A DNA stretch of 64,000 bases, from the NCBI GenBank assembly GCA_017622995.1, contig JAGAQA010000033.1, forward strand, positions 1 through 64,000. Direction: 5' to 3'. This document shows, piece by piece, positions 4,113 to 64,000 of this stretch. The DNA is from Oscillospiraceae bacterium. GTDB taxonomy: Bacteria; Bacillota; Clostridia; Oscillospirales; Oscillospiraceae. The number at the start of each line of letters is the position of its first letter. The first letter of the stretch is position 1. Made by a program: the position numbers and the translations under genes. Under the pieces are notes generated by a model. The model was not told the DNA's origin. It saw nothing but the letters and a program-made list of their open reading frames with translations, and did not search any database.

Positions 4113-4988
4113 TCAGTTTTTTCGCTCCGTCAGGCTCAGGGCCAGCTCGGTCAGGAAGGATGGGTCGGGAAATACCTTCAGGCAGTCGATGGCCCTTGCG
4201 GTGTAATCCTTCACCAGCTGCTCACAGCTGGACAGGCCATACAGTCTGACAAACGTATTTTTGTCCCCGTCCACTCCGGTGGCCTTTCCAAGCTCTCCGG
4301 CATCGCCGATGACATCCAGTATATCGTCCCGGATCTGGAAGGCAAGGCCCAGCAGCGACGCGAATCCGGCTGCCCCTTCCTTCTGGGCTTCGGTGCCGTT
4401 TCCGGCGATAACGCCCAGCACACAGGGGGCAACGATGAGCCGGCCGGTTTTCCGGGACTGAATATCCAGAACCTCCTGCTCGGTGCAGGCCCGTTGAGCG
4501 CTCATAATATCCAGAACCTGACCGCCGATCATACCCAGGGAACCGGCACATTCGCTTAAAATGGCGATGGCCTCCCCGATTTTCCCGGGCTCCGGGAGCT
4601 TTGCACGGGCGGCAACGGCAAAGGCGTCCGTCAGCAGGGCGTCTCCTGCCAGCACGGCCATGCCTTCCCCGAACACCTTGTGGTTGGTGAGCCTGCCCCG
4701 GCGGTAGTCGTCGTTATCCATACAGGGCAGATCATCGTGGATCAGGCTGTAGGTATGGATCATTTCCACCGCCGCGGCAAAGGGCAGCGCCTCCTCCGGA
4801 TTCCTTCCGCAGATCCGGCAGAATTCCAGCGCCAGCATGGGACGCAGCCGCTTTCCCCCGGCCAGGAGACTGTAGTTGGCGGCTTCAAAAATGGGCTTTT
4901 GGGGCTCTTCCCCAAAGGAGGCGTAAATGGATGCCAGGTAACGCTCAATTGTCTCCCGATAAGCACGGGCTTGTTCCTCAAATTTCAT
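4113..4988 (-). CDS. ispA: Geranyl/farnesyl diphosphate synthase (short-chain polyprenyl synthase)
   Basis: This 291-residue cytoplasmic enzyme condenses IPP with allylic diphosphates to make farnesyl diphosphate, the primer for undecaprenyl and other isoprenoids. The first aspartate-rich motif appears as HDDLPCMDNDD and the second as FQIRDDILD, both at the expected places for the IspA/GGPP synthase family. The ATG at 4988 was chosen because GGAGAGGAG lies 9 nt upstream and the ORF then overlaps xseB by 11 nt. It closes the nusB-xseA-xseB operon, as in Bacillus, although dxs does not follow it here. The MEP-pathway genes dxr and ispG and the downstream uppS lie elsewhere in the window. Confidence 0.93.
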   Translation of the reverse strand: MKFEEQARAYRETIERYLASIYASFGEEPQKPIFEAANYSLLAGGKRLRPMLALEFCRICGRNPEEALPFAAAVEMIHTYSLIHDDLPCMDNDDYRRGRLTNHKVFGEGMAVLAGDALLTDAFAVAARAKLPEPGKIGEAIAILSECAGSLGMIGGQVLDIMSAQRACTEQEVLDIQSRKTGRLIVAPCVLGVIAGNGTEAQKEGAAGFASLLGLAFQIRDDILDVIGDAGELGKATGVDGDKNTFVRLYGLSSCEQLVKDYTARAIDCLKVFPDPSFLTELALSLTERKN

Positions 4989-9605: not shown

Positions 9606-9854
9606 ATGCATTACGAATACACAACCAAGGGCACCTGCTCCCGGACCATCTTCTTCGACATTGAAGACGGAAAGCTCCACAACGTACAGTTTATCGGCGG
9701 CTGCAACGGCAACCTGAAGGGCATCGGCGCCCTGGTGGAGGGCCTGAATGCCGAGGATGTGATCGCCAAGGTGGAGGGCATCCGCTGCGGCATGAAGAGC
9801 ACCTCCTGCCCCGATCAGCTGGCAAAGGCCCTGAAGGAAGCACTGAACAAATGA
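9606..9854 (+). CDS. TSCPD domain protein (TIGR03905 type)
   Basis: This 82-residue protein has the FIGGCNGNLKGI strand-turn, the invariant GIRCGMKSTSCPDQL tail that gives the family its name, and an acidic middle. The same domain occurs as a tail of B12-dependent ribonucleotide reductases, but free-standing members are uncharacterised. A GAAAGGAAG site precedes the ATG. Confidence 0.85.
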   Translation: MHYEYTTKGTCSRTIFFDIEDGKLHNVQFIGGCNGNLKGIGALVEGLNAEDVIAKVEGIRCGMKSTSCPDQLAKALKEALNK

Positions 9855-9860
9855 CAGCAC

Positions 9861-9890
9861 AACCGGGACTGGTTTTCACCAGCCCCGGTT
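9861..9890. terminator. Left flanking hairpin of structured repeat A
   Basis: AACCGGGaCTGG / CCAGcCCCGGTT with a TTTTCA loop begins 6 nt after the TSCPD stop codon and ends in TTTGATCTTG. It may act as a terminator. The same hairpin occurs inverted at the other end of the element (10138-10167). Confidence 0.6.
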
Positions 9891-10137
9891 TGATCTTGTC
9901 GGAAAATCCCTTCGGGCTTTTCCGACAATTTTGCAGTCTGCTGCGCGCATAATTTGTTCGCCGCAGGCGAACAAATTCCACACTTGCAGCCTGAGATGTA
10001 TTTTCTGCCAGGTACAGAAGGTGAATTGCCCCGAAGGGGCAAGAGAAGCCACCCTGGGGTGCGCCCCGGCAGAAAATCATTAAGATTCTTTTCGCTGCTG
10101 ACGCAGCGAACTCTGCGAGGCTTTATTGACAGTCTGT
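9891..10137 (-). repeat. Structured dispersed repeat, copy A
   Basis: Read on the minus strand, this copy aligns along most of its length with copy B at 58050-58248. Shared blocks are AAGCCTCGCAGAGTTCGCTG, a TTTTCTGCC/GGCAGAAAA pair, ACATCTCAGGCTGCAAG, the hairpin TTTGTTCGCC-nnn-GGCGAACAAA, TATGCGCGCAGCAGACTGCA and a final long hairpin with a GCCCGAAGGG loop. Stems are kept by paired changes: TGTCGGAAAA/TTTTCCGACA here, TGGCGAAAAA/TTTTTCGCCA in copy B. Copy A carries an extra hairpin-rich insert of about 40 nt between the GCCGGGGCG and GTACCTGG blocks. No protein-coding frame is convincing. Confidence 0.8.
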
Positions 10138-10168
10138 AACCGGGGCCGGTGAAAACCAGCCCCGGTTT
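10138..10168 (-). terminator. Right flanking hairpin of repeat A, terminator of the pyruvyltransferase-like gene
   Basis: AACCGGGGCcGG / CCaGCCCCGGTT with a TGAAAA loop lies 3 nt past the stop of the minus-strand gene. It is the inverted near-copy of 9861-9890. Confidence 0.55.
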
Positions 10169-42799: not shown

Positions 42800-44077
42800 T
42801 TACACCCCGAACAGCTGCTGAATACCGGCCTCGTCCAGCTTGGAGCCGATGACGCAGAGCTTGCCGGTAACATCGGCAGAACCGGTGCGGATGTCGTGCT
42901 CCTCCGGCACATAGTCAAAGTGGATCCAGCTGCCGTCCACAGCGGGCAGGATGCCCTTCGCCCGCAGGATCATGCCGTAATCGCCGGAATCCAGGCCCTT
43001 GAGGGCCGCTTCGATGGTTGCCTTTTCAAACTTTTTGGCAGTCTCCACGCCCCAGGAGGTGAAGACCTCGTCGGCATGGTGATGATGGTGGTGGTCATGA
43101 CAGCCGCAGGTGCAGTTTTCGTCATGCTCCTCGTGGTCATGGTGGTGATGATGCTCGTGCTCTTCGTGGTCGTGATCATGGCCGCAGCAGTGGTCATCCT
43201 CATCGTGGTGATGATGGTGATGCTCATGCTCCTCATGATTGTGGTCATGGCCGCAGCAGCAGTCATCCTCATCGTGATGATGGTGGTGGTGCTCGTGCTC
43301 CTCGTGGTCGTGATCATGGCCGCAGCAGTGGTCATCCTCATCGTGATGATGGTGATGCTCGTGCTCCTCGTGGTCATGGCCGCAGCAGTGCTCCTCCTCA
43401 TCATGATGATGGTGGTGGTGTTCGTGCCCTTCCTCTTCTTCCAGCCGCTGGGTTTCCATCCGGGCCAGCTCAGCGGCCAGCGATGCCTTGCCTTCCATGG
43501 CCTCCACCAGCTGCTGGCCGGTCAGCTGACCCCAGGGAGTTGTGATGATGGTGGCCACCTGGTTGCGCTCCCGCAGCATCTCAACCGCGGTATCCAGCTT
43601 CGCCTGGGGAACGGAATCGGTACGGGACAGGATGATGGTAGAGGCGGTCTCCACCTGATTGTTGTAGAACTCCCCGAAGTTTTTGGTGTAAACCTTTACC
43701 TTACCGGCATCCACCACAGCCACGGTGTAGCCCAGGGTTACATCGGGACCGGTAACCTTGTTCACGGCGCCGATCACATCGGACAGCTTGCCCACGCCGG
43801 AGGGCTCAATGATAATCCGGTCGGGATGGTACTCCCCGATGACCTTTTCCAGGGCCTTTCCGAAGTCGCCCACCAGGGAGCAGCAGATACAGCCGGAGTT
43901 CATCTCGGTAATGTTGATGCCCGCATCCTGCAGGAAGCCGCCGTCGATTCCGATTTCTCCGAATTCATTCTCAATCAGTACCAGCTTCTGGCCCTTGTAG
44001 CCCTCGGCGATCATCTTCTTGATCAGCGTGGTCTTACCGGCACCCAGAAAACCGGAATAAATATCAACCTTTGTCAT
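42800..44077 (-). CDS. COG0523/CobW-family GTPase with a giant His/Cys-rich insert
   Basis: This 425-residue metallochaperone-type GTPase has Walker A GFLGAGKTT (9-17), the metal-binding CxCC as GCICCS (63-66), IIEPSGVG and SRTD in place of NKxD near 151-154. Residues 218-334 form a metal-binding insert of about four repeats built from runs of His, acidic residues and CCGH or CCCGH; roughly half of this segment is histidine. A C-terminal CobW domain follows (ILRAKGILPA ... WIHFDYVP). It probably stores and delivers zinc, nickel or cobalt. The second of two ATGs (44077) has the better spacing from GGAAGG. Confidence 0.88.
   Translation of the reverse strand: MTKVDIYSGFLGAGKTTLIKKMIAEGYKGQKLVLIENEFGEIGIDGGFLQDAGINITEMNSGCICCSLVGDFGKALEKVIGEYHPDRIIIEPSGVGKLSDVIGAVNKVTGPDVTLGYTVAVVDAGKVKVYTKNFGEFYNNQVETASTIILSRTDSVPQAKLDTAVEMLRERNQVATIITTPWGQLTGQQLVEAMEGKASLAAELARMETQRLEEEEGHEHHHHHHDEEEHCCGHDHEEHEHHHHHDEDDHCCGHDHDHEEHEHHHHHHDEDDCCCGHDHNHEEHEHHHHHHDEDDHCCGHDHDHEEHEHHHHHDHEEHDENCTCGCHDHHHHHHADEVFTSWGVETAKKFEKATIEAALKGLDSGDYGMILRAKGILPAVDGSWIHFDYVPEEHDIRTGSADVTGKLCVIGSKLDEAGIQQLFGV
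43076..43426. repeat. In-frame tandem repeats coding the His/Cys-rich insert
   Basis: The DNA is a degenerate tandem array of about 70 bp units rich in CAT/CAC, GAT/GAG and TGC codons (minus strand). Repeat copies differ slightly in number of His codons, as expected from slippage or recombination. Confidence 0.8.
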
Positions 44078-44250
44078 CATTACACCTTCCATAAAAATAA
44101 TCGCGAACTCCATTAAAAGTCCGTTTGGTTCCCGGCGGGTGACCCGCCGGGACATACACATACTTTGTTAGTATAGCACTCCTGTGCTGAAAAATCCAGA
44201 TACAAACATATTTTTCACAGAATATTTCCAAATTCCGCCAAAGAGAACAG

Positions 44251-58049: not shown

Positions 58050-58248
58050 CAGTCTGTCAAAAAGCCTCGCAGAGTTCGCTGTGTCAGCAGTGAAAAGAAT
58101 CCGAATCATTTTCTGCCGGGGCGTGTACCTGGCAGAAAATACATCTCAGGCTGCAAGTTTGGAATTTGTTCGCCTATGGCGAACAAATTATGCGCGCAGC
58201 AGACTGCAAAAACTGGCGAAAAAGCCCGAAGGGGTTTTTCGCCAAGTT
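58050..58248 (+). repeat. Structured dispersed repeat, copy B
   Basis: Opposite orientation to copy A (9891-10137). It contains AAGCCTCGCAGAGTTCGCTG, TTCGCTGT-GTCA-GCAGTGAA (two G-U pairs where copy A has G-C/G-C), TTTTCTGCC...GGCAGAAAA, TTTGTTCGCC-TAT-GGCGAACAAA and the terminal TGGCGAAAAA...TTTTTCGCCA hairpin. Preservation of stems with G-U pairs argues for a structured RNA rather than only DNA. Confidence 0.8.
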
Positions 58249-58282
58249 CACCCCTCCGGAAACAATTGTTTCCGGAGGGGTG
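58249..58282. repeat. Right flanking hairpin of structured repeat B
   Basis: CACCCCTCCGGAAACAA and its complement form a palindrome of 34 bp, 5 nt from the sortase stop codon. It may end sortase transcription, but lacks a T-run on the minus strand. Confidence 0.65.
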
Positions 58283-62800: not shown

Positions 62801-64000
62801 ATGCGTGAAAAAATTGCGCAATACATGGATTTATATTATGCCGGCTCCGGATTGAGCGAAGACCGCCGGCAGCAGCTCCTTCAGGAAGCGCTGGACCTCT
62901 ATGACAGTCTGATCCTGGAGGGCAAAAGCGAACAGGAAAGCTATGCCCAGGTGATCGCCTGGATTGGAGCGCAGGCCCAACCGGTCCCCCATCCGGAAAA
63001 CACACAGAAAACCGATGCCGCCGGAGAGGCCAAAGCCTTTACCCCCATGGGCAAGCGGATCTGCACGGCCATCGCCGTTATGCTGTACATTCTGTGCCCC
63101 ATCCCTCTGATTCTGCTTCAGAATGTGATCGGCCTTTGCTGCCTGCTGGGCATGGTGGCCTGCGGCGTTGCCATTCAGATTCTGGCTGAAAAATTTATGG
63201 ATACCCCGGACCCCATGGACCCCATTTCCAAAGCTGTTCGTCCCATTCTGCACGCAAGCGCCGTTGCTTTGTATGTGCTCTCCCCCATTCCCCTGCTGAT
63301 GTTCCAGGACACCCTTGGCCTCTGCTGCCTGCTGGGTATGGTGGCCGTGGGCGTTGCCATGCAGATCATTGCTGGCAGCGGCAAGGCGGATGTCCAACCA
63401 AAGGCGGAAGCGGATCCTGTACGTAAAAGCATTGATTCCCTTGTCTGCCTGATCCTGCTGGCAATTTATCTGATTGTCAGCTTCCGTACCCACGCCTGGT
63501 GGATCACCTGGATCATCTTCCCCATCGGTGCAGCCGTGAAGGATCTGGTGCTGAGCCTGGCAGCTGTGGGCACCGGCAAAGCTCCCGCCGGAAGCACCGC
63601 TCAGACGGTCATCAAAGCAATTCTGATTGTGGTCCTCTTTTCCCTGCTTGGCAGCGCTGTATGGGGATTCGGACGCAGAAACCACTTCCCCTTCTGGAAT
63701 TTGCCGCTGATTCATCTGAATTCCGGCAGTGAAGTATCGGCAGACAACAATTTTATCACCGAATCAACGGTTCAGAACGTCAGCTTTGACGCAAAGGAAG
63801 TAAAGAAGCTTCACATTGAATGGGTTTCCGGCAATGTCACATTGAAAACCGCTGATCAGCATAATATTACCTTCCGGGTAGACGGGGACAGTGCGCTGCC
63901 CTTCTCCTACCAGCTCAGCGGCAATGAACTTGACCTGCGCTACCCTGCCGACAACGCTCTCTGGAAACCGGCAAGGGGCAGCAAAAACCTGACCATCACC
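62801..64000 (+). CDS. Polytopic membrane protein with DUF1700-like N-terminus and DUF4097-like domain (incomplete)
   Basis: The gene is open to the window edge, so its 3' end is missing. The N-terminal MREKIAQYMDLYYAGSGLSE and YDSLILEGKSEQESYAQVI are a DUF1700/HAAS-like helical domain. Two duplicated hydrophobic units follow (MLYILCPIPLILLQNVIGLC and ALYVLSPIPLLMFQDTLGLC, each ending LLGMVA), then further helices. After about residue 320 an extracellular beta-helix-like DUF4097 domain begins (KKLHIEWVSGNVTLKTAD). Relatives respond to envelope stress and often follow a PadR regulator; none is seen here. A GAAAGG site and a strong promoter support the start. Confidence 0.75.
   Translation, partial: MREKIAQYMDLYYAGSGLSEDRRQQLLQEALDLYDSLILEGKSEQESYAQVIAWIGAQAQPVPHPENTQKTDAAGEAKAFTPMGKRICTAIAVMLYILCPIPLILLQNVIGLCCLLGMVACGVAIQILAEKFMDTPDPMDPISKAVRPILHASAVALYVLSPIPLLMFQDTLGLCCLLGMVAVGVAMQIIAGSGKADVQPKAEADPVRKSIDSLVCLILLAIYLIVSFRTHAWWITWIIFPIGAAVKDLVLSLAAVGTGKAPAGSTAQTVIKAILIVVLFSLLGSAVWGFGRRNHFPFWNLPLIHLNSGSEVSADNNFITESTVQNVSFDAKEVKKLHIEWVSGNVTLKTADQHNITFRVDGDSALPFSYQLSGNELDLRYPADNALWKPARGSKNLTIT

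Follow-up and report, generated by a model that had tools for sequence, protein, structure and literature searches.

A short non-coding element of gut Oscillospiraceae with IS1182-like ends and duplication of whole stem-loop targets

The window analysed here is a stretch of 64,000 nucleotides from a contig of an Oscillospiraceae bacterium. It contains two copies, A and B, of a large structured repeat that had been described in a first-pass annotation of the sequence, and we located both where they had been placed. Copy A follows a gene encoding a TSCPD-domain protein. Each copy consists of the mobile element proper and a hairpin on either side:

9606-9854, + strand: gene of a TSCPD-domain protein (Pfam PF12637, E 7e-32), whose 3' hairpin is the target of copy A
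9861-9890, + strand: hairpin on the left of copy A, duplicated target, fitting 10138-10167 better inverted than direct
9892-10136, + strand: copy A proper, the mobile element of 245 bp (long class); ends fixed by alignment with other copies
9896-9928, + strand: stem S1, the left-end hairpin, which includes terminal-repeat sequence (covariation helix 1)
9951-9977, + strand: stem S2, a strongly covarying hairpin (helix 2, change on both sides in 9 of 12 pairs)
10000-10077, + strand: stem S3, 10000-10009 paired with 10068-10077 (helix 3, change on both sides in 6 of 10 pairs)
10017-10061, + strand: 45-bp module in the S3 loop, optional and missing in copy B (alignment of 86 elements)
10091-10110, + strand: stem S4 (helix 4, change on both sides in 6 of 8 pairs)
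10138-10167, + strand: hairpin on the right of copy A, duplicated target with an inverted loop
58020-58049, - strand: flanking hairpin at the right end of copy B
58050-58249, - strand: copy B proper, the mobile element of 200 bp (short class)
58251-58280, - strand: flanking hairpin at the left end of copy B

The module in the S3 loop accounts for the difference in length between the copies. The flanking hairpins, of 30 bp each, are alike within copy A or copy B and unrelated between the two; they are therefore the duplicated target and not a part of the element, a distinction that the annotation had missed. Two other repeats of the window lie inside reading frames. Imperfect tandem-like repeats at 43068-43426, four 92-nt copies among them, are located in a minus-strand frame (42800-44161) for a CobW/CobW_C protein; their codons look histidine-rich and probably encode a metal-binding insert. 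A direct repeat of 121 nt (63068-63374; 72% alike, 186 nt apart) is located in a minus-strand frame of 294 amino acids that has no Pfam match.

The BLASTN search of the whole genome and of related genomes that had been proposed for the repeat returned many copies. In the host genome (2.55 Mb, 66 contigs), 26 BLAST places were grouped into 16 loci with 14 elements. Matches are present in 56 of 136 genomes of the genus, where five first-look candidates were scored per genome and copy numbers are minima. A 202-bp query finds matches in 126 of 300 genomes of the family and in 62 of the 106 genera sampled, often only with its positions 44-202 or 90-195. Records with the exact pattern, from at least 80 loci, are titled Candidatus Faecousia species, Oscillospiraceae, Clostridia and Eubacteriales. 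The element is about 200-310 bp long, non-autonomous and MITE-like. A longer relative with the same interior was considered and rejected: 100 paired copies include one of 628 bp, and the others reach about 310 bp. The 628-bp element (L219, from about position 4412, minus strand) exceeds the short class by about 420 bp and perhaps carries an insertion. Four contig ends of the host genome, C39, C35, C42 and C10 (L009, L013, L010 and L014), are half-elements. By eye, the hairpins of C39 and C35 match, as do those of C42 and C10, which is what elements lying between two copies of one hairpin would produce; the matches point to C39-C35 and C42-C10 as contig joins that the draft lacks.

We used 86 non-redundant complete elements to characterize the flanks. 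A direct repeat with a score of at least 14 is present in 64 of them, compared with 1 of 400 mismatched pairs that combine the flanks of different elements. Hairpins, scored as a stem of at least 6 within 8 nt of the junction, occur at 83 left and 74 right junctions, against 24 of 167 control stretches taken 200 bp away. Whole-hairpin repeats thus flank the element far above chance. The 64 direct repeats measure 17-35 bp, and their length tracks that of the hairpin (r = 0.91, n = 64). The hairpins differ between loci, and no target sequence is common to different insertion loci.

Both hairpins are present in 74 elements, with 54 direct pairs (25 identical), 7 inverted pairs (2 exactly), 4 ties and 9 pairs scored as different, among which L135, L137 and L109 are alike by eye. 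Copy A belongs to the inverted class (L001, L017, L044, L046, L110, L113 and L136); the exact inverted matches are L110 and L113, where the loop alone is turned round. Some of the 22 elements that have no direct repeat carry inverted, different or one-sided hairpins. The hairpins are truly different or one-sided in, for example, L066, L102, L105, L056 and L114, so that recombination after insertion, or outcomes of another kind, occur as well. Outside the genus, the hairpin is duplicated in 21 of 62 loci (61 places), compared with none of 300 controls; the remaining 41 loci have no hairpins, or one-sided or unmatched ones.

We refer to the flanking hairpins as terminator-like because T-rich tails are present in only a part of them and those of copy A escaped a simple terminator scan of the surrounding region. 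The outer ten bases of the right hairpin are T-rich in 33 of 74 elements, and the ten bases before the left hairpin are A-rich in 31 of 74. The single site found by the scan lies inside the element and does not score above shuffled sequences. The term terminator rests largely on position and shape.

Sites that lack the element were found at homologous positions. DNA of the TSCPD gene matches in 109 of 136 genomes of the genus. Among the best 30 of these 109 matches, all 29 relatives from other genomes have a hairpin of their own sequence after the stop codon, somewhat further down in L304, and core motifs are absent within 400 nt after the stop codon. These hairpins were judged by fold and by eye, and the sites are homologous rather than strain-level empty sites. 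DNA of the gene to the right of copy A gave only three short matches in the genus. Flanks match other loci in 11 cases, and two of these, L126/L182 and L123/L216, were used as sites without the element: in L182 and L216, the homologous gene has a hairpin and no element. In L127 and L200, the element is located in two different hairpins behind the homologous gene of two genomes.

An alternative account of the flanks makes the hairpins a part of the element, with gene conversion keeping them alike. The match within each copy and the inverted pairs would agree with it. We consider it highly improbable, as hairpins of different copies share no sequence and relatives that lack the element have one hairpin at the site, L182 and L216 included.

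At two pairs of orthologous loci, L039/L108 and L110/L134, the element is present in opposite orientations between flanks that are about 93-96% alike. The cores are 88.6% identical in both pairs and rank 8th and 6th, respectively, whereas shared copies in the same orientation have cores 98.5% and 97.0% identical that rank first. In-place inversion was rejected on this comparison, and independent insertions fit better.

The ends of the element are CAGNYTGTCRAAAAA-like, as in IS1182-type insertions of the genus, although the shared stretch is only about 15 bp. We fetched 20 candidate loci and inspected the ends of 12. Six insertions could be read at both ends; each end is CAGNYTGTCRAAAAA or a few changes away from it, and every one of the six has a hairpin on either side. 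In four of them, the two hairpins are the same: L077 (34 bp), L079 (64 bp), L081 (25 bp) and L078 (25 bp, one mismatch), while L074 and L084 have different hairpins on either side. The insertion in L079 (394-2035) sits between two copies of a perfect 64-bp palindrome, the longest duplication seen. For IS1182, ISfinder lists repeats of 0-60 bp. Four further loci have one CAGNYTGTCRAAAAA-like end beside a hairpin. L069 ends differently and lacks a hairpin of this kind, and L073 was left out of these groups. Three proteins tested exceed the cut-off of NF033551 (IS1182 family transposase).

Positions 2-15 of the left end in the genus consensus are the same as the end of the insertion in L077. The interior of the element is not a deletion derivative of the insertion sequence, as a search for core motifs in the 20 loci gave one short, chance-like match. 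PF13751 matches occur in 36 of 136 genomes of the genus (33 above the cut-off), in 21 of 56 genomes with the element and 15 of 80 without it (p = 0.018, with descent ignored). The draft genome of the host (66 contigs) has no match to PF13751, NF033551 or PF01609 (IS1182 / DDE_Tnp_1), and no relatives of the transposase were found in the viral contigs searched. The missing host gene and the copies without terminal repeats, which sit directly behind a hairpin, would also suit a different enzyme, for instance a single-strand or site-specific system that lands at hairpins and moves the interior, with the IS1182-like ends being secondary. We regard this as improbable: the left end coincides with that of the L077 insertion, the IS1182-type insertions duplicate whole hairpins likewise, and single-strand and intron systems are not known to make such whole-hairpin duplications.

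The reading that we favour, at a probability of roughly 0.8, is that the element, a non-coding transposon, depends for its movement on an IS1182-type DDE transposase supplied in trans, which would recognize the shape of a stem-loop and not its sequence. Such an enzyme would pick stem-loops, mostly the terminator-like hairpins behind genes, and a cruciform is probably the form that it reads. In the strand transfer, the ends of the element would join the 5' feet of the stem-loop, as drawn in pathway b for IS1272, and gap repair would then leave one whole hairpin on each side. The host gene would thereby retain its hairpin after insertion, since the doubled hairpin would leave one gene-side copy in either landing orientation. 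This suggests a route to harmless insertion for mobile elements, in which the host hairpin is preserved by copying. The mobile palindromic unit, one of three guesses in the first-pass annotation, is borne out by the many copies, the hairpin duplications and the IS1182-like ends. The verdict is an IS1182-type non-autonomous element with whole-stem-loop target duplication.

The interior of the element is structured. The annotation had claimed that the hairpin arms of copies A and B differ by paired substitutions, and the covariation indeed exceeds column-wise chance. Among 41 distinct elements of the 202-bp class, 27 of 42 pairs change on both sides. Double-change cells number 130 against a shuffle mean of 33.2, with none of 500 shuffles as high (descent ignored), and there are 17 one-sided cells with standard pairs. 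S2 itself lies within another covarying helix, formed by GCAGCCCGC and GCGGGCTG. Element pairs that are at least 96% alike show 20 one-sided and no double changes, although these pairs are not independent. A concerted change of both arms by template switching was rejected on these counts, and the arm changes look stepwise.

The first of the two arm replacements described for the copies, TGTCGGAAAA/TTTTCCGACA by TGGCGAAAAA/TTTTTCGCCA, is present. The second had been described as keeping its stem through two G-U wobbles, which exist on the strand opposite to that of copy A and not on copy A's own. Read on copy A's strand, copy B has TTCACTGC...ACAGCGAA, with two A-C mismatches and no G-U wobbles. 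The conclusion drawn from the wobbles, selection at the RNA level, finds no support on copy A's strand. The four stems (38 pairs, 65 distinct representatives) contain 2331 Watson-Crick pairs, 195 of them changed on both sides, 22 G-U, 27 A-C and 64 other combinations. Family-wide, 31 pairs predicted on both strands were counted in 89 of 103 representatives, giving 33 G-U and 57 A-C on copy A's strand (p = 0.015) and 447 double changes.

RNase P of the genus served as a control. In pairs with a Watson-Crick majority, it has 75 G-U against 14 A-C, and in the matched set, with pairs predicted on both strands, 13 against 6. The family-wide element differs from the matched control on copy A's strand (p = 0.02). 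On the opposite strand, with 57 G-U against 33 A-C, it does not differ (p = 0.80), and the strand opposite to copy A may therefore give rise to an RNA. Within the genus, the both-strand pairs of the element give 15 against 22 on copy A's strand (p = 0.09 compared with RNase P) and 22 against 15 on the other (p = 0.57). RNase P has 256 against 18 on its own sense structure and 289 against 21 on an antisense structure; structures chosen for a strand thus favour G-U. The element on its own predicted structures has 78 against 28 on copy A's strand and 279 against 27 on the other. Wobble counts hinge on the choice of pairs and of control, and strong covariation in a repeat is alone no proof of RNA. 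No RNA signal is seen on copy A's strand, and the near equality of G-U and A-C would fit DNA hairpins kept on both strands. The inner hairpins are probably maintained as hairpins in DNA, which is the least certain step of our reading. The counts speak neither for nor against RNA decisively; the paired internal changes are real and may serve DNA or RNA.

The interior is also found apart from the transposon ends. By eye, an intact core without terminal repeats is present in about 11 of the 62 loci outside the genus. At the 3' site of rplL, where 30 loci were fetched and the 28 genomes with at least 330 nt downstream were counted, 7 congener genomes have the core at the same place; L418 has a truncated copy and the others have no core. 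In L399, L401, L403, L405 and L414, the core behind rplL has its conserved end, ...CTCTGCGAGGC, by eye about 10 nt before the apparent ATG of the next gene. The GAGG in this end could serve as a ribosome-binding site, again by eye.

It is possible, in principle, that the repeat is a functional structured RNA, such as a leader, a 3'-UTR element or a small RNA, perhaps of the opposite strand, that IS1182-type ends picked up and spread and that persists because of its function as an RNA. The covarying helices, the retention of the interior across genera, the cores without terminal repeats and behind rplL, and the opposite-strand wobble lean are in its favour. It is nevertheless rather unlikely, given that copy A's strand has no wobble excess, the orientation to neighbouring genes is mixed, Rfam gives no match and no promoter-like site was found around copy A. 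The first-pass annotation had recognized no catalogued element, and the Rfam search of the window likewise returned no family at the gathering score; a search of 14 loci gave no meaningful match either. Its further guess of an mRNA-end stabiliser does not agree with the orientations, which in a crude test were scored as left gene only in 15 and right gene only in 8 cases in the genus, and as 13 and 14 outside it, unlike an mRNA-end element.

A tentative suggestion, to which we give slightly more credit than to the RNA reading, sees the interior as a structured nucleic acid in its own right, which predates the transposon ends that it now has and is present family-wide. A transposase that recognizes shape would read the hairpins of this interior; for such an enzyme, stem-loops would be its target sites as well as its own ends. 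Copies at fixed sites, such as the one behind rplL, would have been kept after the loss of mobility, possibly for a DNA cruciform or RNA role of their own. The most interesting point of the case is how well the non-coding interior is conserved across the family, both in copies that have transposon ends and in copies that lack them.

Close to the element in behaviour are the IS1182-type insertions of the same genus (L077, L078, L079 and L081), which have similar ends and duplicate whole hairpins. They differ in being about 1.5-1.6 kb long, in encoding a transposase and in an interior unlike that of the element. IStrons combine an insertion sequence with a group I intron. The element resembles them in joining a structured non-coding part to the ends of an insertion sequence, but has no match to a group I intron in Rfam. 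As far as the available part of PMC10969869 describes them, bacterial MITEs are, like the element, short, non-coding and repeated, with terminal repeats and target duplication. The element is unlike them in its long, variable duplication, which is a hairpin, and in its covarying, structured interior conserved in the family.

IS1272 and TnSha1 of staphylococci, as described in the available parts of PMC5678879 and PMC4923244, also target stem-loops, often terminators, that have no shared sequence. The first of these sources reports that IS1272, of the IS1182 family, replaces stem-loops of any sequence, and cites Siguier et al. 2015 for palindromic targets in the family. The second describes hairpin targets, of which 5 of 7 were confirmed as terminators by RNA-seq, partial deletion, and both orientations in one terminator, as at the terminator-like hairpins here. 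Both elements have a transposase of the IS1182 family, the type that we infer for the mobiliser of the present element. Insertion of IS1272 or TnSha1 replaces the stem-loop or deletes a part of it, and these parts describe no duplication, whereas the present element is non-coding and its stem-loop is usually found whole and twice. Removal of the target is not the common outcome in the genus, where duplication is, although single hairpins or none at all are seen at some loci. The literature searched, with most subscription journals outside the search, yielded no report of a whole hairpin duplicated in nature. Pathway b of the IS1272 model lets the ends attach at the 5' feet of the stem-loop, with duplication of the entire stem-loop as the result; the available text presents this pathway as hypothetical, with no duplications observed. 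The present elements fit it. They provide dozens of natural sites of structure-directed transposition with the whole stem-loop duplicated, an outcome that was drawn, and, in that text, not seen, for IS1272.
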